This document shows positions 26,627 to 38,012 of a stretch of DNA of 64,000 bases, piece after piece. The translations under genes were made by a program, and so were the position numbers. The notes below the pieces were generated by a model. The model did not search any database. It was not told where the DNA came from and was given only the letters and a program-made list of their open reading frames with translations. Source of the stretch: Chitinophagales bacterium (GTDB lineage: Bacteria > Bacteroidota > Bacteroidia > Chitinophagales > Chitinophagaceae); assembly GCA_017303835.1 (NCBI GenBank), contig JAFLBI010000001.1, positions 1 to 64,000 on the forward strand, read 5' to 3'. How positions within the stretch are numbered: position 1 is the stretch's first letter; every line of letters begins with the position of its first letter.

Positions 26627-29600
26627 TTGATTTTTTCGCGCTGGAAATATTTGCTTTCGGGCCTCATCACCATCTTGTTTTGTTGTTGCGGTAACCTGTT
26701 GTTCGCTCAACGGACAGATTCTTTGCGTTACCCTATTAGCGACAGAAGAACCGATCTGTTCAGCGCCGGTAAATCGCATGCTTTCGATTTCAATGATTCA
26801 CTCTACCTCAAGCGGGAAGTGAAATACGATCCCAAGACCAAAACCTATTATGTTGAAGAGCGTATAGGCAGCAAAACCTATCGCAAAGCGGTACCCATTT
26901 CTTTTCAGCAATTCTACCAGCAACAAAGCAGACAGGCTGAAGTGGATTATTTCCGCAAGCGTGCAGATGCCATCACTTTACTCAATAAGAAAGTAGCCCG
27001 GCCAAAAATGCGTGTGTATGATCAGTTGTTCGACAGGATGTTTGGTCTCGGTCCCAATGGTTTGAAAGTAGATATCCGTCCACAAGGTGAAGTGAATATC
27101 CTCGCCGGTTATCAAGGGCAAAACATCAAGAACCCCACACTCGCAGAAAGAGCACGCCGCAATGGTGGTTTTGATTTTGACATGAATGCCAATCTGGGTG
27201 TGAATGCCAGCATTGGTGATAAGCTGCGCTTTCCCATCAACTACAATACCTTATCCAACCTGAATTTCGATAATCAGATCAAACTGGATTATAAGGGTAT
27301 GGATGATGAGATGATCAAGAGTATTGAAGCCGGTAATATTTCTTTTCAATCGAAAGGAACACTGATACCCGGTGCGCAAAACCTCTTTGGTATCAAAACA
27401 CAATTACAGTTTGGAAAATTATTTGTTACAGCTGCTATTGCCAACCAGCGTTCGCAAAGACAATCTGTTGCTTTGCAGGGTGGCGCATCTACCAATACAT
27501 TCCAGAAGAAGCTGGATGATTATGAAGAGAATAAACATTTTCTCTTAGCCCAATACTTCCGCAATAATTTCAATAAGTCCATGTCGCAATTGCCGATTGT
27601 GAACAGTCAGGTACAGATTCTGCGTATGGATGTTTGGGTAACGAATAGAACAGGTGCTACAACAGAATCGCGCGATGTGGTGGGTTTGATGGATTTGGCA
27701 GAAACCAATCCGCATAGAGTAGGTGTGGTGAATCCTTTAACCACCAATCAACTTCCTGATAACCGCGCGAATGATTTGTATGCTTACCTCACAGCTAATC
27801 CTGCCAACAGAAATCCGGTGCAGATTACGAGTCAGTTATTGGCAAAGGGCTTAAGGCCGGTAGAAGATTTTGAAAAAACTTTCGCGAGAAAATTATCACC
27901 CAACGAATATTATTTCAATCCACAAATTGGTTTTCTCTCACTGAATACACAATTGCAACCAGATGAAGTGCTGGGTGTGGCTTTTCAATACACATTCAAT
28001 GGACGGGTTTACCAAGTAGGTGAATTTGCGCAAGATGTTGGGTTGGATTCAACACAGGGCGTACAAAAGGTCTTGTTCCTGAAATTATTGAAAGCTACTT
28101 CGCAAAGACCGTCATTGCCGATCTGGGGTTTGATGATGAAGAATGTGTACACGCTCGATTTATTTGGGGGTATTCAGCGTGAAGATTTTAAGTTGAATGT
28201 TCTGTACGAAGAACCCAGTGGTGGTTTGAAAAGATATTTACCGGAAACTGCACCCGCGGTGGAAGGTCAGCCTTTGTTGCGCATCCTGAATTTAGACCGT
28301 CTTAATAACCGAAATGATCCACAGCCGGATGGGGTGTTCGACTGGATTGATGGCTTCACCATTTTACCACAACAGGGTCGAGTGATTTTTCCGGTGTTGG
28401 AACCATTTGGTCGGGATTTGGACAGGCTTGCTTATAACGGACAAGCTGCTGCGCTGAAGCAGAAATACATTTACTATCAATTGTACGATTCAATTAAAGC
28501 CATTGCCCAGACCTATGCCAATGTGAATCGTTTTGTGATGCAAGGCCAGGCCAAGGGAACGGGTGGTTCTGAAATTTTCCTCAACACATTCAATATTCCG
28601 CAAGGATCAGTCACTGTTGCAGCTGGCGGACAATTACTCCGTGAAGGAGCAGACTATGTGATTGATTATAATCTGGGTAGTGTAAAGATTTTGAATCAGG
28701 GTATTTTATCATCTGGTATTCCTGTGCAAGTATCATTTGAAAACAATGCCGGCTTTGGTTTACAACAGCGAGGCTTCTCCGGTTTGCGTTTGGATTATTT
28801 GGCAAATAAAAAACTGGCTTTGGGTTTTTCAACTGTGCGTTTGGGTGAGCGTCCCTTCTTTACCAAGATGAATTACGGTGATGATCCCATTCGAAACACC
28901 ATGTTTGGATTGGACTTTAGTTATCGCTCAGATTTGCCCGGCTTAACACGTGCGTTGAATAAGCTGCCTTTCTATTCAACTAAAGCCCCATCGAGTATTA
29001 CAGCTTATGGTGAAGCAGCTTTATTGAAACCCGGTCACCCACCACAGATTGGTCGTGCAGAACAAGGCTTGATTTATTTAGATGATTTTGAAGGCACACG
29101 AAACAATATTGATTTGCGTTTTCCTTTTGTTGCATGGAATCTTGCTTCCACACCACAGGGTAATCCCAAATTTCCTGAAGCTACATTAACCGATTCGGTT
29201 GATTACAATAAGAATCGCGCCAAATTAGCTTGGTATCAGATTGAACCCAACCTGCAGGATAAGAACAGTCCGAATAACCCCTTGCGCAGAAACCTTGCTG
29301 AATTGAGCGATCCGCGTGTACGTCAGGTATTCACGAATGAATTGTTCCCGCAGCGTACCACCAATATCACAGATATACAAGCTTTCACTTTTGATATGGC
29401 TTTTTATCCGCGTAACAAGGGTCCATACAATTTTGAAAACAGAATTGGTCAGATCACAGACAGTGGTCATCTTACCAATCCCGCTGCTCGCTGGGGTGGT
29501 ATCATGCGTGCATTGGATCAAACAGATTTTGAAACAGGTAATATTGAATTCGTTGAGTTCTGGATTCAGGATCCATTTATCCGTAATACCAATAGTCGCG

Positions 29601-32600
29601 GTGGTAAATTATTCTTGAACCTCGGTAATATCAGTGAAGACATCCTGAAAGATGGCAGAAGATTTTACGAGAACGGTTTGAATACACCAAGTATTCCGGC
29701 TGCTGTAGATAGTAGCAACGCATGGGGTAAAGCACCGGTGAACCCAATTCAGATTACGCAAGCATTTAGTAATGATCCTGCCGACAGACCATTTCAGGAT
29801 GTGGGATTGGATGGGGTGGATGATGCTGCAGAAAGAAGAAAGCGTCAGAACTACCTGAACAGACTGGCACAAAACTTTGGTACAAACTCGTTCATCTATC
29901 GTCGCGCATTGAACGATCCATCAGATGATAACTATGTCTGGTTCAGGGATGCGAGTTATGATGGATCTGCTACAGGTATTTTAGGACGTTACAAGAATTT
30001 CAATAACCCGCAGGGCAATTCACCTGTGGCTACAACGGGCGGACAGTTTACGCCAGCCGCAACCTTGTATCCAGATAATGAAGATTTGAACAGAGACAAT
30101 ACGCTTAATGAATCGGAAGAGTATTATGAATACCAGATTGATCTCTTCCCCAATATGAATGTGGGCAGCAATAAATACATCACTGATAGAAGAACGGTTA
30201 CCGTGAATTCTGCGGATGGTATTCGCAGAACCGAGAACTGGTATTTGTTCCGTGTGCCGATTCGTGATTACAGCAGAAAAGTGGGGAATATTCCTGATTT
30301 CAAATCCATCCGCTTCATGCGCTGGTATATGACAGATTTTGAAGACTCTGTTGTGCTGCGTTTTGTGAAGATGGATCTGGTGCGTAACCAATGGCGTCAG
30401 TTCACGTACAACTTAGATACAGCAGGTAATTATATCAAGCTGCCCAATAACTCGCCAACAACTTTTAATACACTGGCCGTAAACCTGGAAGAGAATAGTG
30501 CACGCCAGCCGGTAAACTATGTGATTCCACCGGGTATTGAACGCGTACAACAGCTGAGTAATAATGGTGTGAACTTATTGCAGAACGAGCAGGCATTGAG
30601 TGTACAAGTACGCAACCTGCCTCGCGGTGATGCGCGTGGTGTATTCAAGACTGTGCCATTTGATATGCGTCAGTATGGTAAGCTCTCCATGTTTGCGCAC
30701 ATTGAATCCATTGTTGGTCAGGCTGCATTAAGAGATGGTGATGCCAATCTGGTGGTGCGTTTGGGACAGGATTTCTTGAACAACTATTATGAAATCAAGA
30801 TTCCGTTGAAAGTAACACCGCCGGGCACGTACACGCCGGGTCAGGCCAATATTGTCTGGCCCGATGCGAATAATTTAGATTTTAGTTTGCGTGAATTGGT
30901 GGATTTGAAATTGCGGCGTAATCAAACGAATCAATCTTTCACGACCATTTATCGAGAGCGTATCGGCAATAAAACCTTCTCCGTTTTTGGTAACCCGAAC
31001 TTGGGAGAAGTAAGGGGTATTTTGGTGGCAATAGAAAATGCCAATCCAACCAGCACAGCGCCCATGCATGCAGAAATGTGGGTGAATGAATTGCGTTTGT
31101 CTGAATTAGATGAGAAATCAGCATGGGCTGCATTGGGCAGGGTGGATATGAACCTTGCTGATCTCGGTACATTATCTGTTTCAGCGAATACCTACACACA
31201 AGGTTTCGGTACCATTGAACAAAGGGTGAATGAACGTGCGCGTGATAACTTGGTGCAGTTTGATATTGCTACCAATTTGAATGCAGGTAAATTAACGCCA
31301 GCCAAGTGGGGTTTGTCCTTACCGGTGTATGCGAGTATTAACAGAACCATTCGTGCGCCACAGTACGATCCTTATGATCGGGATGTACTGTATAAAAGCA
31401 AACTCAATGCAGCAGGTAATAAACGAGATTCTATTCGTAATGCAGCATTGGATCAAACCACGATCAAGACCATCAATTTCACCAATGTGCGTTTGGCGCC
31501 TTCAGCGCGTAAGCCTCAGCCATGGCGCTTAAGCAATTTTGATTTTAGTTATTCTTTCACGCAGACAGAGCAGAGTAGTCCGCTCATTACTGAAAATAAA
31601 ATTACCCGTCACCGCGCAGGAATGGGTTATACGTTCAGCGGACAGCCCAGATACATTGAGCCGATGCGTTACCTCATCAAGGGGAATAGCAATTGGTTGA
31701 AATGGCTGAAGGAATTCAATTTCAACCTGACGCCATCCTTGATTGGTTTCCGTGCAGATGTGAACCGACAATTTGGACAATTCATACCACGGATTGTTAA
31801 TACTGTTGATAGCAAAGTTGAAAGAGTAGATACCACATACGACAAGTTCTTCACCTTCGATCGTTTCTATAACCTGCGTTGGGATTTGTCGCGTTCTTTG
31901 AATATTGATTTCTCTGCAACCAATAATGCGCGTGTAGATGAGCCATTCGGCAGAATTGATAGGGGTCCCAAGCGAGATTCGGTAAGAGACAATTTCCTGA
32001 AGGGTGGTAGAAATACTTTGTATCAGCAAACAGCTAACCTTACCTATACTTTGCCATTGAATAAGATTCCATTGGTAGATTGGATTAATGCGCGGTATAG
32101 TTATAAGACCACCTACAATTGGGTGGGTGCTAGTTTGATTGCCCGCAGTTTGGGTAATGTCATTGAAAATGGGCAGGACAATAACCTCACCGGTGAGTTT
32201 GATTTCAGAAGACTCTATGCTAAATCTAGATGGTTACGTGCTTTAGAGGATTATACCGTTCCTGTTCGTTCAGATGCAGATGTGCAGGATAATAAGAACA
32301 AGCGTAAACGTAAGCCTACACCACCGCCACCGGGTCCGGATTTACAGCAATCAGTTTTGGGCAGCACATTGCCATCAAAGGAAGAAGTGGTGAAAGATTT
32401 GAAGGGTAAAGCACGCAGAGAAGCTTTGCGCAAATGGCGTCAACAGAGAAGGGATGAGCGTTTGGCCCGAAGACTATCCAAGCAAAATGAACCGGTAGAG
32501 ATGAATGATTTTGTGCGTGCTGGTGGACGACTATTGACGATGGTGAAGAGTGTGAATGTTAGCTATACAGAAAATCTGCGCAGCAGATTGCCGGGCTTTA

Positions 32601-33943
32601 TGGATAGTTCAAGAATCCTGGGTAATAATTTCAGCAGTATGGCACCGGGCCTGGGTTATGTTTTTGGCAAGCAGCCCGATACCAATATGCTGAACAATTT
32701 TGCCAGCAGGGGTTTGATGAGTAGCGATAGTAATTTCAATTTCCTTTTCCGTCAAAATTTTGAGCAACGTTTGAGTATCACTGCACAGGCAGAGCCCATA
32801 CGAGAATTCAATATCAGTATCAATTTGGATAAGTCCTTCAATAAAGACTATTCAGAATTGTTCAAGGACACATTGAGTAATGGCAAGTTTGCGCATTTGA
32901 GTCCGCTTGCATCAGGTGGCTTTAGCGTATCATATATGGCCTTGAATACTTTATTCAGAAAACAAAACCCCAACGAGATATCACAAACATTCCGTGAGTT
33001 TGAACAGAATCGACAGGTTATCTCACGCCGTATTGCGGCAACCAATCCATACTGGCAATCCTTGCCACCAGGACAGCAGTTTACATCAGATGGTTATGCG
33101 CGTGGTTATGGCCGTTATTCGCAGGATGTGCTGATTCCTGCATTCCTTGCTGCTTATACCGGTAAAGACCCGAATAATGTGCCTTTGATTGGACAGAATA
33201 ACAGCTCAATCAGAACCAATCCATTCAGGGGTATTCTGCCCAAACCGAACTGGCGCGTGACCTACACGGGTTTGACCAAACTGCCGGCCCTTGCTGAGAA
33301 ATTCAGCATGATTACTTTATCGCATGGCTATAATAGCACATTAAGCATGAACAGCTTTGCCAGTGCATTGCTCTATCGCGATCCATTTGGTTTGGGTGCG
33401 CCAGGCTTTGTAGATACGGTGAGTGGTAACTATATACCCTATTTCCTGGTGCCGAATTTATCGATGCAGGAAGCATTCACACCTTTGATTGGTGTGGATA
33501 TTACAACAGTGAATCAGCTTAACCTGAAGTTTGAATACAAGCGAAGCCGACAGCTGAGTTTGAGTCTGGTGGATTTTCAGTTGGCTGAAACAAGAAGTAC
33601 CGAGTGGGTATTTGGATTCAGTTGGCGTAAGCGAGGCATCAAGCTGCCTTTCCAATTACCTTTCATGAGAGGTAAGACCATGGAGAACGATCTTAGTTTT
33701 AAACTGGATCTGTCTATGCGTGATGAACAACAGAGCAATAGTCGCTTAGACCAGAGTAATGCCTATGGTACTGGCGGACAAAAAGTCATCACCATTCAGC
33801 CTGCGATCGATTATGTGTTGAATAACCGTATTAACCTGAAATTTTTCTTCGATCAGCGTAGAGCGATTCCTTATATCTCTACTTCGGCGCCAATTACCAA
33901 TACGCGAGCGGGTGTTCAGGTAAGGATTAGTTTGGCGCAGTAA
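26627..33943 (+). CDS. sprA: Cell-surface protein SprA, type IX secretion translocon
   Basis: A 2,438-residue outer-membrane beta-barrel protein, the size and composition of SprA/SOV, the channel of the Bacteroidota type IX secretion system used for gliding adhesins and secreted enzymes. The signal peptide is MIFSRWKYLLSGLITILFCC and runs to about residue 27. Recognisable pieces are GKSHAFDFNDSLYLKREVKY, NPTLAERARRNGGFDFDMN, FLLAQYFRNNFNKSM and LIYLDDFEGTRNNIDLR. A basic linker rich in Lys/Pro near residue 1890 is variable in the family. The start must be TTG at 26627, because a stop codon lies two codons upstream and no ATG precedes the signal peptide. Confidence 0.92.
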   Translation: MIFSRWKYLLSGLITILFCCCGNLLFAQRTDSLRYPISDRRTDLFSAGKSHAFDFNDSLYLKREVKYDPKTKTYYVEERIGSKTYRKAVPISFQQFYQQQSRQAEVDYFRKRADAITLLNKKVARPKMRVYDQLFDRMFGLGPNGLKVDIRPQGEVNILAGYQGQNIKNPTLAERARRNGGFDFDMNANLGVNASIGDKLRFPINYNTLSNLNFDNQIKLDYKGMDDEMIKSIEAGNISFQSKGTLIPGAQNLFGIKTQLQFGKLFVTAAIANQRSQRQSVALQGGASTNTFQKKLDDYEENKHFLLAQYFRNNFNKSMSQLPIVNSQVQILRMDVWVTNRTGATTESRDVVGLMDLAETNPHRVGVVNPLTTNQLPDNRANDLYAYLTANPANRNPVQITSQLLAKGLRPVEDFEKTFARKLSPNEYYFNPQIGFLSLNTQLQPDEVLGVAFQYTFNGRVYQVGEFAQDVGLDSTQGVQKVLFLKLLKATSQRPSLPIWGLMMKNVYTLDLFGGIQREDFKLNVLYEEPSGGLKRYLPETAPAVEGQPLLRILNLDRLNNRNDPQPDGVFDWIDGFTILPQQGRVIFPVLEPFGRDLDRLAYNGQAAALKQKYIYYQLYDSIKAIAQTYANVNRFVMQGQAKGTGGSEIFLNTFNIPQGSVTVAAGGQLLREGADYVIDYNLGSVKILNQGILSSGIPVQVSFENNAGFGLQQRGFSGLRLDYLANKKLALGFSTVRLGERPFFTKMNYGDDPIRNTMFGLDFSYRSDLPGLTRALNKLPFYSTKAPSSITAYGEAALLKPGHPPQIGRAEQGLIYLDDFEGTRNNIDLRFPFVAWNLASTPQGNPKFPEATLTDSVDYNKNRAKLAWYQIEPNLQDKNSPNNPLRRNLAELSDPRVRQVFTNELFPQRTTNITDIQAFTFDMAFYPRNKGPYNFENRIGQITDSGHLTNPAARWGGIMRALDQTDFETGNIEFVEFWIQDPFIRNTNSRGGKLFLNLGNISEDILKDGRRFYENGLNTPSIPAAVDSSNAWGKAPVNPIQITQAFSNDPADRPFQDVGLDGVDDAAERRKRQNYLNRLAQNFGTNSFIYRRALNDPSDDNYVWFRDASYDGSATGILGRYKNFNNPQGNSPVATTGGQFTPAATLYPDNEDLNRDNTLNESEEYYEYQIDLFPNMNVGSNKYITDRRTVTVNSADGIRRTENWYLFRVPIRDYSRKVGNIPDFKSIRFMRWYMTDFEDSVVLRFVKMDLVRNQWRQFTYNLDTAGNYIKLPNNSPTTFNTLAVNLEENSARQPVNYVIPPGIERVQQLSNNGVNLLQNEQALSVQVRNLPRGDARGVFKTVPFDMRQYGKLSMFAHIESIVGQAALRDGDANLVVRLGQDFLNNYYEIKIPLKVTPPGTYTPGQANIVWPDANNLDFSLRELVDLKLRRNQTNQSFTTIYRERIGNKTFSVFGNPNLGEVRGILVAIENANPTSTAPMHAEMWVNELRLSELDEKSAWAALGRVDMNLADLGTLSVSANTYTQGFGTIEQRVNERARDNLVQFDIATNLNAGKLTPAKWGLSLPVYASINRTIRAPQYDPYDRDVLYKSKLNAAGNKRDSIRNAALDQTTIKTINFTNVRLAPSARKPQPWRLSNFDFSYSFTQTEQSSPLITENKITRHRAGMGYTFSGQPRYIEPMRYLIKGNSNWLKWLKEFNFNLTPSLIGFRADVNRQFGQFIPRIVNTVDSKVERVDTTYDKFFTFDRFYNLRWDLSRSLNIDFSATNNARVDEPFGRIDRGPKRDSVRDNFLKGGRNTLYQQTANLTYTLPLNKIPLVDWINARYSYKTTYNWVGASLIARSLGNVIENGQDNNLTGEFDFRRLYAKSRWLRALEDYTVPVRSDADVQDNKNKRKRKPTPPPPGPDLQQSVLGSTLPSKEEVVKDLKGKARREALRKWRQQRRDERLARRLSKQNEPVEMNDFVRAGGRLLTMVKSVNVSYTENLRSRLPGFMDSSRILGNNFSSMAPGLGYVFGKQPDTNMLNNFASRGLMSSDSNFNFLFRQNFEQRLSITAQAEPIREFNISINLDKSFNKDYSELFKDTLSNGKFAHLSPLASGGFSVSYMALNTLFRKQNPNEISQTFREFEQNRQVISRRIAATNPYWQSLPPGQQFTSDGYARGYGRYSQDVLIPAFLAAYTGKDPNNVPLIGQNNSSIRTNPFRGILPKPNWRVTYTGLTKLPALAEKFSMITLSHGYNSTLSMNSFASALLYRDPFGLGAPGFVDTVSGNYIPYFLVPNLSMQEAFTPLIGVDITTVNQLNLKFEYKRSRQLSLSLVDFQLAETRSTEWVFGFSWRKRGIKLPFQLPFMRGKTMENDLSFKLDLSMRDEQQSNSRLDQSNAYGTGGQKVITIQPAIDYVLNNRINLKFFFDQRRAIPYISTSAPITNTRAGVQVRISLAQ

Positions 33944-33945
33944 AC

Positions 33946-33988
33946 AAATGCAGTTGGCCTAAGTTTTAAACTCAGGCCAACTGCATTT
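33946..33988. repeat. REP-like palindrome, left of the RAYT gene
   Basis: A 43-nt hairpin: AAATGCAGTTGGCCT ... AGGCCAACTGCATTT around a TTTTAAA centre, with one mismatch. It begins 3 nt after the sprA stop and overlaps the last codon of the RAYT gene. Its core CT-AGTTTTAAACTCAGG is shared with the palindrome at 34578-34612. Confidence 0.85.
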
Positions 33989-34541
33989 AAAGCAATTCTA
34001 GTTTTAAAAGTCCGCAGTTTTTGCCATAGTAGTAATCTCTTGCAGAGCTATAGATATACTCTTCTGATTTCTCAACTATGCCGGCAGCAACTGGATTATT
34101 ATGAATGTAATTTAGTTTCTGGCGTATGAAGCGTCTGCTGAATATTTCTATTGGATGATTATCTTGTTGCCAAAATTGATACTGCTTGTTACGGCTATTT
34201 GCCTGGCCTTTCTGTCTGAAGACCTGTAACATCCATTCTTTTCGGCTTTCTCTTGGATTCGCAATAATTGCTTTAATGATTTTTTTGCTGGTATATTTTT
34301 TGAAATCTCTTAAAATATCACTTGGGTTATTATCTCTTGCAGAGATTACTAAATGAACATGATTGCTCATGATGCACCAGCTATGTAGTATTAAACCTTT
34401 TTCTTTTTGGCAATATCGTATGCTATCTAGCAGTAAGTCTCGATATACTTTTCTTGTAAAGACATCAATCCATTCAACTACTGCAAAAGTGATAAAATGA
34501 ATGGCTTCTTTGTTTCGAATTTTATAGCCGCCAACAGCCAT
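33987..34541 (-). CDS. REP-associated tyrosine transposase (RAYT, Y1/HUH type)
   Basis: A 184-residue IS200-like nuclease of the RAYT/TnpA_REP group. The metal-binding HUH pair is in MSNHVHLVI (His 61 and 63) and the candidate catalytic Tyr is in LNYIHNNPVAAGIV (about 145). Such enzymes are single-copy, do not carry terminal IS ends, and are thought to mobilise REP palindromes. The gene lies between two related palindromes and between two convergent host genes (sprA and an ABC permease gene). Confidence 0.88.
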   Translation of the reverse strand: MAVGGYKIRNKEAIHFITFAVVEWIDVFTRKVYRDLLLDSIRYCQKEKGLILHSWCIMSNHVHLVISARDNNPSDILRDFKKYTSKKIIKAIIANPRESRKEWMLQVFRQKGQANSRNKQYQFWQQDNHPIEIFSRRFIRQKLNYIHNNPVAAGIVEKSEEYIYSSARDYYYGKNCGLLKLELL

Positions 34542-34577
34542 TGGTTTTCTATCATTAACAACAAAACTTATATTATA

Positions 34578-34612
34578 GTAGTTATCCTGAGTTTTAAACT
34601 CAGGATAACTAC
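34578..34612. repeat. REP-like palindrome, right of the RAYT gene
   Basis: A 35-nt hairpin, GTAGTTATCCTGAG ... CTCAGGATAACTAC, around a TTTTAAA centre; only the central TT/AA fails to pair. It begins 36 nt upstream of the RAYT start codon and ends 11 nt before the stop of the ABC permease gene. It may also act as that gene's terminator. Confidence 0.87.
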
Positions 34613-34623
34613 AAATTATTTAT

Positions 34624-35955
34624 TTAGTATTTCCGAAAAGCCCATTTCCACATTTCCTTCCAAGTCACTTTCTTGCCATACATCAGGATGCCTGTTCTAT
34701 AGATTTTGCCTGCCAACCATGTTGTGGCAATAAAACCTGCAACCAATAAGGCCATACTTAATAATAATTGCCATACAGATACCCCTTCAGGAATGCCATG
34801 ACCAATACGAGCCATCATTACAATTGGTGATGTAAGCGGGAACAAGCTACCGAATACTGCAATCGGACTGTTGGGGTCATTCACTGCTTTGGTCAGAATC
34901 ACAAAAGCAAAAATGATGGGCATGGTAATAGGCAGTAATAAGCTTTGTGCATCTTGTGGATCTTCATTTACAGCACTACCTACAGCAGCAAATAATGATG
35001 AATAGAGGAAATAGCCGCCCAGGAAGTAGAAAATGAAACAACCAATAATCAATGGGAAATTAATCTGACTCAAGCCGGCCATTAAACCATCTAATGCACC
35101 ACTCTGCTTGGCTGCATTCATGGCACCTGCTGCACCTGGCTGTATTGCCTGTGATTGCATAGACTGCGCCAGCTCAGGGAAAATTACTGGTAAAAGGAAT
35201 TGTAAGCCGATAATCAGTATGCCCCAGATGATGAATTGGGTTAAGCCAACTGCACCAATGCCAATGATTTTACCCATCATCAGTTGGAAGGGTTTTACAC
35301 TACTTACAATTACTTCTGCAATACGGCTCACTTTTTCTTCCATCACGCCACGCATTACCATCGTACCATAAATAAATAGTACCATGTAGATAAGAATGCC
35401 ACTGATGAAACCCACACCATAACTGATGCCTGCTTTAATGCCACTATCGCTTTTGCCAGCTAGTGTTGTATAGTTGATATCACTGTCTTTACGCAGGCTG
35501 TCTAACAATGTCTTTGAAATATTCATCTTGGCCATGCGCTTCTCTTCCAATCGCTTATTGATGCTGCGCTGGATATCTTCACGCGTCATGATGCCAGTAG
35601 CTTTACCAGATTTAAAGTACAGCTCGCTCTCATCACTATCGAGTGTGTAGTTCTCAGGAACGAATAAGTAGGCGTCGTATACTTTTTTCTCTAACTGCGT
35701 TTTCAGTTCTGCAGTATCAGACTGTACGATTTTAAAGACAACTTCTTCCTTTTTCGATTCTAGTTTTCCTTCAAAAATATTGGCCTTGTCAACCACCGCA
35801 ACTGTGTAATCATCAGATCCCTTTACAGAGAAGAAAATGATGGCTGCGTAGAAACCAAAGATCAAGAGGGGTAAACCGATTGTAGTGAGTAGGAAGGTTT
35901 TCTTTTGTACACGAGTGAGGAATTCTCTGCGTGCAACAATCCATATTTTATTCAT
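34624..35955 (-). CDS. ABC-2 type transporter permease
   Basis: A 443-residue inner-membrane protein of the ABC-2/NatB type. One transmembrane segment near the N-terminus (about 22-44) is followed by an extracytoplasmic domain of about 130 residues, then five to six membrane segments from about 178 to 425. It begins MNKIWIVARREFLTRVQKKTF, typical of this group. It is transcribed with the ATPase gene 17 nt upstream; together they would form an exporter, substrate unknown. Confidence 0.87.
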   Translation of the reverse strand: MNKIWIVARREFLTRVQKKTFLLTTIGLPLLIFGFYAAIIFFSVKGSDDYTVAVVDKANIFEGKLESKKEEVVFKIVQSDTAELKTQLEKKVYDAYLFVPENYTLDSDESELYFKSGKATGIMTREDIQRSINKRLEEKRMAKMNISKTLLDSLRKDSDINYTTLAGKSDSGIKAGISYGVGFISGILIYMVLFIYGTMVMRGVMEEKVSRIAEVIVSSVKPFQLMMGKIIGIGAVGLTQFIIWGILIIGLQFLLPVIFPELAQSMQSQAIQPGAAGAMNAAKQSGALDGLMAGLSQINFPLIIGCFIFYFLGGYFLYSSLFAAVGSAVNEDPQDAQSLLLPITMPIIFAFVILTKAVNDPNSPIAVFGSLFPLTSPIVMMARIGHGIPEGVSVWQLLLSMALLVAGFIATTWLAGKIYRTGILMYGKKVTWKEMWKWAFRKY

Positions 35956-35972
35956 AATACTTTGTGTTGAGG

Positions 35973-36908
35973 TTATTGAACTGGTTGAAATGCGCGGGTG
36001 GTTGACTTAGTGCCTTCCACCAGTCTGATAAAGATGTCGTTCAGTGAAGGCAATATTTCATTAAAGCCCTCTACTGTCAGATTTTGCTGAATCAGGTATT
36101 GCAATACATCATTGCTCTTGAAGCCCTGCTGAATCTTTACCGTTAGTTGATTGGCATTTTGTTCCAACACATCAAATGCAGCATGGCTCAAACCATTGGG
36201 CACTTCTGATAATTTAATGCTGAACTTGTTTTCCTTGAATTGTTGCTTCACATCATTTACAGTACCATCCAGAATTTTCTTACCAAGGTTTACTAATACA
36301 ATATGGTCACAGATTTCTTCTACCTGCTCCATTCTGTGTGTACTGAAGATAACGCTGCAGCCACGTTGTGCCAGACCGTAGATTTCATCTTTGATCAAAT
36401 TCGCATTTACAGGGTCTAATCCACTGAATGGTTCATCCAGAATGATGAGTTTGGGCTCGTGCAGTACCGTTGTCACAAACTGGAGTTTCTGGCTCATACC
36501 CTTACTGAGGTCTTCCACTTTCTTATTCCACCAGCTCTCCATTTCCATGCGTCTGAACCAAAACTTGATTTTTTCCATTGCTTCTGCATGGTTCAAGCCT
36601 TTGAGCTGGGCCAGGTACAAAGCCTGTTCCCCAATCTTCATTTTCTTGTACAAGCCTCTTTCTTCGGGCATGTAACCAATCTTCAATACATCTTCAATGG
36701 GGTTGAAGGATTGGCCGTCGAAAATAATTTGTCCGCTATCGGGGTAAAATATCCCCGTGATCATGCGCAGGAGGGTGGTTTTACCGGCACCGTTGGGTCC
36801 CAGCAAACCAAAAATGCTACCGGCCTTCACCTCGAAACTGATATCATCCACCGCTTTCTGCGTGGCATAATATTTCTTCAGGTTTTGTAATTCCAGGATG
36901 TTACTCAT
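35973..36908 (-). CDS. ABC transporter ATP-binding protein
   Basis: A 311-residue ATPase subunit. Walker A is GPNGAGKTT (about 40-48), the signature DLSKGMSQKLQFV is somewhat divergent (LSKGM instead of LSGGQ), Walker B is LIILDEPFSGLDP and the H-loop STHRMEQVEEI. The C-terminal extension (about 215-311) is that of the NatA/gliding-type exporters. The start at 36908 (MSNILELQNLKKYYATQ) replaces a much longer frame running into the upstream intergenic region. It pairs with the ABC-2 permease. Confidence 0.9.
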   Translation of the reverse strand: MSNILELQNLKKYYATQKAVDDISFEVKAGSIFGLLGPNGAGKTTLLRMITGIFYPDSGQIIFDGQSFNPIEDVLKIGYMPEERGLYKKMKIGEQALYLAQLKGLNHAEAMEKIKFWFRRMEMESWWNKKVEDLSKGMSQKLQFVTTVLHEPKLIILDEPFSGLDPVNANLIKDEIYGLAQRGCSVIFSTHRMEQVEEICDHIVLVNLGKKILDGTVNDVKQQFKENKFSIKLSEVPNGLSHAAFDVLEQNANQLTVKIQQGFKSNDVLQYLIQQNLTVEGFNEILPSLNDIFIRLVEGTKSTTRAFQPVQ

Positions 36909-37022
36909 TGGTCTTGGTTTTGATAAATGTAGGAAACTGCCCACATTGGTAGCAGTACCCGTGTAATTATTACAACAACGGCAGGTTTTATGGTTATTTT
37001 GCGCTCTTAACCTCCAAGAAGT

Positions 37023-38012
37023 ATGAAACGTGTTTTGGTTGGCATTTTTGCGCTTGCAGTAGTGATGAGCCTGTCTAGCTGGGGCTTTCTGGTACATAAG
37101 ACAGTGAATCAGGTAGCTATCTACCAATTGCCCTCAGGTATGCGCCCTTTCTTTTATAAGAACATGGATTATCTGGTGTATAACGCGCCAAGACCCGATA
37201 TACGTCGCAATACAGATAGTACGGAGGCAACCAAGCACTTTATTGATATGGAAGCTTATGGTGATTCTGCAGCTTGGAAAATGCCGCTTGACTGGGAAGC
37301 TGCCGTGCAGCAGTTTACCCGCGATACATTAATAAAGTATGGTTATGTGCCTTATCATGTGGTGTATATGCAGCGTAAACTTACTGAAGCTTTCCGTTCA
37401 GGTAATGCAGATAGCATTCTATTCTACGCAGCTGATTTAGGCCATTATATCGGCGATGCGCATGTGCCTTTGCATACTACTATTAATTATGATGGTCAGC
37501 TCACCAACCAAAAAGGCTTGCATGCTTTGTGGGAAAGCGTGGTGCCTGAGATTGAGTTGGATCAATACCAATTGAATAGCGGCCACAAAGCCAAATACCT
37601 GAAAAATCCTGCTGAAGCGATTATGCAGGGTGTGCGTGGTGCTTTTCAATTATTGCCTGATGTGTTTGCTGTTGAGACCAGACTCACGCAGCAATTTCCG
37701 GATAGTGTCAAGTACAGAACACAGATGCGTCGCGGCACACCGGTAAAATATTATACCACTGCTTTCGCCAAAGCCTATGGCGAAGCGTTGAAACCAACCA
37801 TCAACACACAATTGTTGCGTTCAGCAGATTTATTGGCTGATTTCTGGTACACAGCCTGGGTAGATGCGGGCAAGCCTGATCTGAAGGCCATCACTAAGAA
37901 TTGGACTGAGGCTGATAAAGCTGCTTTAAAAGCACATCGCAAATCATATCAGCGTAATGGCTTGATTGCAGAGAAGAAACTGCAAGCCAAAGCTGGTGCT
38001 TCTGGTGAGTAA
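37023..38012 (+). CDS. Secreted zinc-dependent phospholipase C / S1-P1 nuclease-like protein
   Basis: A 329-residue exported protein. After the signal peptide the mature chain probably begins near Trp in SSWGFLVHKTVNQVA, as in this superfamily, where the N-terminal Trp and the next His bind zinc. Further ligands are in HFIDMEAYGD and DLGHYIGDAHVPLHTTINYDG, and LHALWES follows. It would cut phosphodiester bonds in lipid or nucleic acid outside the cytoplasm; which one is not clear. The gene is divergent from the ABC operon. Confidence 0.82.
   Translation: MKRVLVGIFALAVVMSLSSWGFLVHKTVNQVAIYQLPSGMRPFFYKNMDYLVYNAPRPDIRRNTDSTEATKHFIDMEAYGDSAAWKMPLDWEAAVQQFTRDTLIKYGYVPYHVVYMQRKLTEAFRSGNADSILFYAADLGHYIGDAHVPLHTTINYDGQLTNQKGLHALWESVVPEIELDQYQLNSGHKAKYLKNPAEAIMQGVRGAFQLLPDVFAVETRLTQQFPDSVKYRTQMRRGTPVKYYTTAFAKAYGEALKPTINTQLLRSADLLADFWYTAWVDAGKPDLKAITKNWTEADKAALKAHRKSYQRNGLIAEKKLQAKAGASGE

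Follow-up and report, generated by a model that had tools for sequence, protein, structure and literature searches.

The REPtron, a RAYT gene flanked by two REPs, and the TnpA-REP proteins of the Bacteroidetes are the described systems against which we compared the locus reported here. As far as the excerpts of PMC2817692 and PMC8266576 go, the REPtrons of E. coli and Stenotrophomonas hold their RAYT gene between two palindromes and are accompanied by many genomic REP copies that carry a GTAG or GTGG tag. The same excerpt of PMC8266576 describes the 5' tetranucleotide as crucial for E. coli TnpA-REP and as acting in the choice of cleavage site in another system. For TnpA-REP subclass 2.6, Table 1 of Quentin et al. 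2018 (PMC6006769) lists the motifs NH[LIV]H, WQ, and YIH[QN]NP. The excerpted text of that paper equates the subclass with Bertels group 5, places it mostly in Bacteroidetes, and reports flanking atypical secondary structures that have no GT[AG]G tag and have copies elsewhere in the genome as well. In that text, figures and supplements aside, the recognition structures of the subclass are given just as atypical secondary structures.

We analyzed a RAYT gene that lies between two hairpins, A and B, in a 64,000-nucleotide stretch of DNA (the window) from a Chitinophagales genome, G000 (Table 1). Bacterial mobile units that consist of a RAYT gene, which encodes a small single-strand-DNA transposase, between its own hairpins are known, and this locus is a well-preserved ordinary example. 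We consider it likely that the locus is a REPtron-like unit made of a subclass 2.6 RAYT and its cognate REP hairpins, which was ancestrally mobile and is now resident and non-dispersing, with hairpins that have lengthened into near-perfect palindromes.

Table 1. Features of the RAYT unit and its neighbors (positions in the window)
Feature	Positions	Strand	Description
sprA (T9SS translocon Sov/SprA), neighbor outside the unit	26627..33943	+	Converges on the unit; TIGR04189, 2422.7 bits
Hairpin A	33946..33988		3' REP of the RAYT gene; core CCTaAGTTTTAAACTCAGG; deleted in G001
RAYT / TnpA-REP gene	33987..34541	-	184 aa; HUH motif NHVH, WQ, YIHNNP (subclass 2.6 type)
Hairpin B	34578..34612		5' REP of the RAYT gene; core CCTGAGTTTTAAACTCAGG; both outer-stem arms differ in G001
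ABC-2 type permease gene, neighbor outside the unit	34624..35955	-	Codirectional with the RAYT gene

The protein scored 98.2 bits against the RAYT model NF047646 (NCBIfam REP_Tyr_transpos; cut-off, 80) and 35.5 bits against PF01797 (cut-off, 23), while the IS200 model NF033573 stayed below threshold (27.4 bits; cut-off, 55). A search of solved structures returned E. coli TnpA-REP (4er8; E = 0.0015) as its sole match. The catalytic tyrosine has the Y---NP context, and Y145 and N149-P150 are invariant among the eight sequences of alignment A1. Comparison with the published motif table (PMC6006769, Table 1) found all three subclass 2.6 motifs, with WQ read as WQQ. Placed by its motifs alone, the protein is a TnpA-REP of subclass 2.6. 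It shares with the IS200/IS605 elements a Y1 HUH transposase and hairpins at both ends, but it has Y---NP rather than Y---Q, falls under the cut-off of the IS200 model, and has no multiple identical copies. A search for phage carriage gave no match, and a plasmid search gave five records, each less than 60% identical. Between G000 and its congener G001, the RAYT gene has a dN of 0.035 and a dS of 0.155 (NG86). This ratio of about 0.2, from one species pair, suggests that the gene is apparently still constrained by purifying selection.

The first-pass annotation described a RAYT gene bracketed by a pair of hairpins, and inverted repeats were indeed found on either side of it. The arms of hairpin A (33946-33966 and 33968-33988) are 21 nt long and 95% complementary, and those of hairpin B (34578-34594 and 34596-34612) are 17 nt long and 100% complementary; each pair is separated by 1 nt. 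A scan of the window returned seven palindromes with an arm score of at least 12, and the two strongest were A (score, 18) and B (17), followed by a third with a score of 13. Folded as single-stranded DNA, A and B gave z scores of -8.2 to -9.6 against shuffled sequences. Aligned in direct register, the two share 82% identity across 34 nt. Their order can be read in two ways, since both are near-perfect palindromes: a tag-like GTT fits the inverted order, and the loop reads as direct. The stop codon of the RAYT gene (33987-33989) shares bases with the end of hairpin A. The unit was also said to fit exactly between the stops of its neighbors, and here the 11-nt gap to the permease gene holds, whereas the gap to sprA is 2 nt rather than 3 nt.

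Neither hairpin matched an Rfam family at the gathering level. In G000, hairpin A has the outer ends GCAG...CTGC and hairpin B has GTAG...CTAC, so that the canonical GT[AG]G tag stands at the 5' foot of B in G000 only; it is found neither in A nor in G001. In this respect hairpin B resembles the double-foot REPs of subclass 2.4, which PMC6006769 describes in the excerpted part, as it begins with GTAG and ends with CTAC. However, the G001 counterpart reads AGGGC...GCCCT, hairpin A has other ends, and the protein carries the subclass 2.6 motifs. The likeness to subclass 2.6 as portrayed in the same excerpt extends to the Bacteroidetes host and to flanking hairpins without a GT[AG]G tag that were found by inspection, but our genome differs in having no dispersed copies of them.

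The hairpins stand next to the stops of two converging genes, at distances of 2 and 11 nt, and could also be ordinary terminators of sprA and the permease gene, with the RAYT gene merely lying between them. Hairpin B scores as terminator-like on the plus strand, and the outer stems keep their pairing between species. However, the T-tracts are weak, being present for B on the plus strand only and for A on neither strand. A simple terminator scan found two sites in the region, compared with a mean of 0.7 in shuffled sequences, and among A and B it picked out only B on the plus strand. In addition, G001 is without hairpin A, and the hairpin core flanks homologous RAYT genes at other places in other species. 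We regard this explanation as unlikely. A terminator role is possible, yet it is not needed to explain the hairpins, and the proposal that they terminate both neighbors is weak, as B alone scores as terminator-like, on one strand, and G001 has lost A.

We then compared the hairpins with those of related RAYT genes, using the best 80 of at least 566 relatives from a scan of genome contigs. Besides the congener's copy (L096), ten relatives among these 80 are 65 to 71% identical to the protein (L097 to L104, L111, and L143). The exact core CCTGAGTnnnnnACTCAGG is found no more than 230 nt from the gene in 4 of the 10 (L097, L098, L100, and L104), on a single side or on both. It lies farther upstream in L102, and one flank of L101 holds a core with two mismatches. 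Both flanks of L143 contain CCTTAGT...ACTAAGG, and L099, L103, and L111 have hairpins of different sequence. With up to two mismatches allowed, the core was present on the 5' side of 7 and the 3' side of 6 of 81 loci, with the window counted among them. A point against our preferred explanation is that the exact core is not seen in five of the ten nearest relatives. In one relative, L097 (MWTC01000015.1), an exact 222-nt direct repeat brackets the RAYT gene.

For the 78 of 81 loci with usable flanks, each 5' flank was compared with inverted 3' flanks: the median score was 23.75 when both flanks came from one gene and 9.5 when they came from different genes, and the same-gene match exceeded the 95th percentile of the control in 51 of 78 loci and the 99th in 41. 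The window's own score of 17.0 equals the control 95th percentile exactly and is not above it. The outer ends CCCC-G(C/T)TG were found on both sides in 4/81 loci, compared with 0/81 on the other strand, and are absent from the focal unit. Read in the inverted frame, the hairpins of L097, L098, L104, and L143 have GCT ahead of them at one flank or, in most cases, at both, and GTT precedes those of other relatives, such as L101; the canonical GT[AG]G tag was absent in the relatives examined. From these comparisons we propose a candidate recognition structure for subclass 2.6, predicted from sequence, in which a G(C/T)T tag leads into (A/G/C)TCCTGAGT and a short loop region separates this from ACTCAGGA. 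In the relatives the tag is mostly unpaired, whereas in G000 and G001 it is inside a near-perfect stem. The hairpins of the nearest relatives score about 9 to 12, and those at our locus differ in having longer, nearly perfect arms of 17 to 21 nt.

An exact-core search in eight genomes, which took in the genome of neither L098 nor L099, counted one occurrence each in G000 and G001, two each in G059 and G060, six each in G061 and G062, and none in G002 and G063; the reversed control pattern had no matches in any of the eight. Copies of the core with no RAYT gene in the fetched stretch were L196 and L206 in G062 and L194 and L198 in G061. The two copies in G062 are the more secure, because the contigs of L194 and L198 are short (3.1 and 4.5 kb) and that of L198 also carries the RAYT gene of G061. 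Since the core flanks homologous RAYT genes elsewhere and also stands away from the gene in two genomes, we conclude that it behaves as a REP of this RAYT clade.

The search suggested earlier for further copies of the hairpin core in the genome turned up nothing in G000 beyond A and B, apart from one match with three mismatches. A dispersed REP family in the host genome was thus rejected. A looser pattern of tag plus core gave no matches in G000 and four in G001, of which two are hairpin B itself, and its reversed control gave one. Like the REPtrons of E. coli and Stenotrophomonas, the locus has a palindrome on each side of its RAYT gene, and these agree with the REPs of relatives; it is unlike them in lacking the many tagged genomic copies described in the excerpts cited above. 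The idea that A and B are the RAYT's own pair of REPs is supported by the core flanking the RAYT genes of relatives and standing away from the gene in two of those genomes, and not by any further copies in G000. A RAYT gene under apparent selection without a REP population makes this locus a fair test of the roles of domesticated transposases. In the second congener (G002), a cluster of GCGCGAGTTTGCAACTCGTG-like repeats lies 3' of the only RAYT gene (L010, G002:C14).

Using set thresholds, we searched 59 genomes for the neighbors and found sprA in 54, the permease gene in 51, and both in 46. The two genes flank a RAYT gene in G000 and G001 only. In the remaining 44 of 44 genomes they are on separate contigs or more than 100 kb apart, although contig ends could hide an exception. 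Because the adjacency is limited to G000 and G001, the unit lies at a junction peculiar to the two species. No empty site, with sprA next to the permease gene and no RAYT gene between them, was found among the 46 genomes with both genes.

Divergence between the two species varies along this region. In 250-base bins, identity between G000 and G001 is 92 to 99% at 34001-35500, which covers most of the RAYT gene and the part of the permease gene next to it, compared with 78 to 90% on the sprA side (30001-33750) and 82 to 86% at 35501-36500. Recombination has thus probably touched the region. The permease gene has a dS of 0.37, and the C-terminal part of sprA has a saturated dS of 2.3. Farther along the window, at 36501-37750, patches of 93 to 100% identity to G001 stand amid sequence of 82 to 90%, which points to interspecies recombination.

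In G001 the unit is at the same place but lacks hairpin A, where the two species differ by 33 nt with CAA at the borders. We judged it unlikely that G000 gained A by insertion, as opposed to G001 having lost it, because the outer arm of A would then match the host over about 8 nt by chance, while deletion between CAA repeats explains the G001 sequence directly. The outer stem of hairpin B is AGGGCT/AGCCCT in G001 and GTAGTT/AACTAC in G000. The G001 form is probably the older one, as it contains GGCTATCC, which has the tag and stem of the relatives.

By analogy with the TnpA-REP proteins that have been studied, the RAYT protein would bind a single-stranded hairpin along with the short tag on its 5' side (G-C/T-T for this clade) and would cut near the foot of the hairpin. 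The presence of relatives at other loci in other taxa suggests that the clade moved between genomes. In its own lineage the unit is resident, and its REPs have not spread, as A and B stand alone in the genome. The two hairpins appear to have grown into near-perfect palindromes that draw the tag into the stem, which may hinder cutting; given the role of the 5' tetranucleotide described in the excerpt of PMC8266576, pairing of the tag might lower activity.

The genome contains four further RAYT genes, which are 26 to 37% identical to the focal one. Around three of them are direct duplications that include a host terminator: blocks of 45 and 22 nt at L003 (G000:C2:143673-147113), 28 nt at L004, and 22 nt at L005. 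These duplications are unlike the IS200/IS605 elements, which are reported to insert without larger target duplications. In the wider set, a direct repeat score of at least 20 across the RAYT gene was found in 13 of the 53 loci with long flanks (of 80), compared with 1 of 318 shifted windows; many of the 13 are REPs, counted together with host duplications.

The duplications at L003 to L005 raise the question of whether A and B are themselves two copies of one host terminator, duplicated when the RAYT unit was inserted, and their 82% likeness over 34 nt in direct register would fit such an origin. However, those three loci have distinct REP hairpins, and the terminator copies stand outside these. 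A and B, in contrast, match the REPs of related RAYT genes, and the sole direct repeat found around the focal unit is the hairpin core. We consider this origin very unlikely.

L003 has a counterpart at the same site in G001 (L188, G001:C1:297600-304000). The two RAYT genes are 98.75% identical with a dS of 0.005, and the adjoining ABC gene has a dS of 0.59. Together with the duplications and direct repeats above, this suggests that RAYT units here move between species, although these points concern units other than the focal one and local recombination could also explain them. The L003 comparison, and the relatives at other loci in several taxa, would fit a focal unit that is a still active IS-like element in which the RAYT gene and both hairpins move together. 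But G000 and G001 have one copy each at the same locus, the search for an empty site gave none, the stem encloses the tag, and the outer CCCC-G(C/T)TG ends of some relatives are missing, so that present activity seems rather unlikely. We favor instead the resident, non-dispersing unit described above.

In a broader scenario, which we think improbable, RAYT units of this lineage would travel between related species as discrete units into preset intergenic sites and would duplicate the local terminator, so that each neighbor retains a copy. The focal unit would then represent a more advanced step: its REP pair, rebuilt into perfect palindromes, would hide the tag and lock the unit in place, and what remains would be a stationary HUH nuclease under selection with just one substrate pair of its own.

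Two further features were seen in G001. At L188, about 945 bp of extra sequence with a small open reading frame lies between the REPs. At gldK-murF (the L004 locus), the end of L207 and the start of L209 (G001 C25 and C4) consist of REP arrays with the same terminator at each end, and the assembly breaks inside them.
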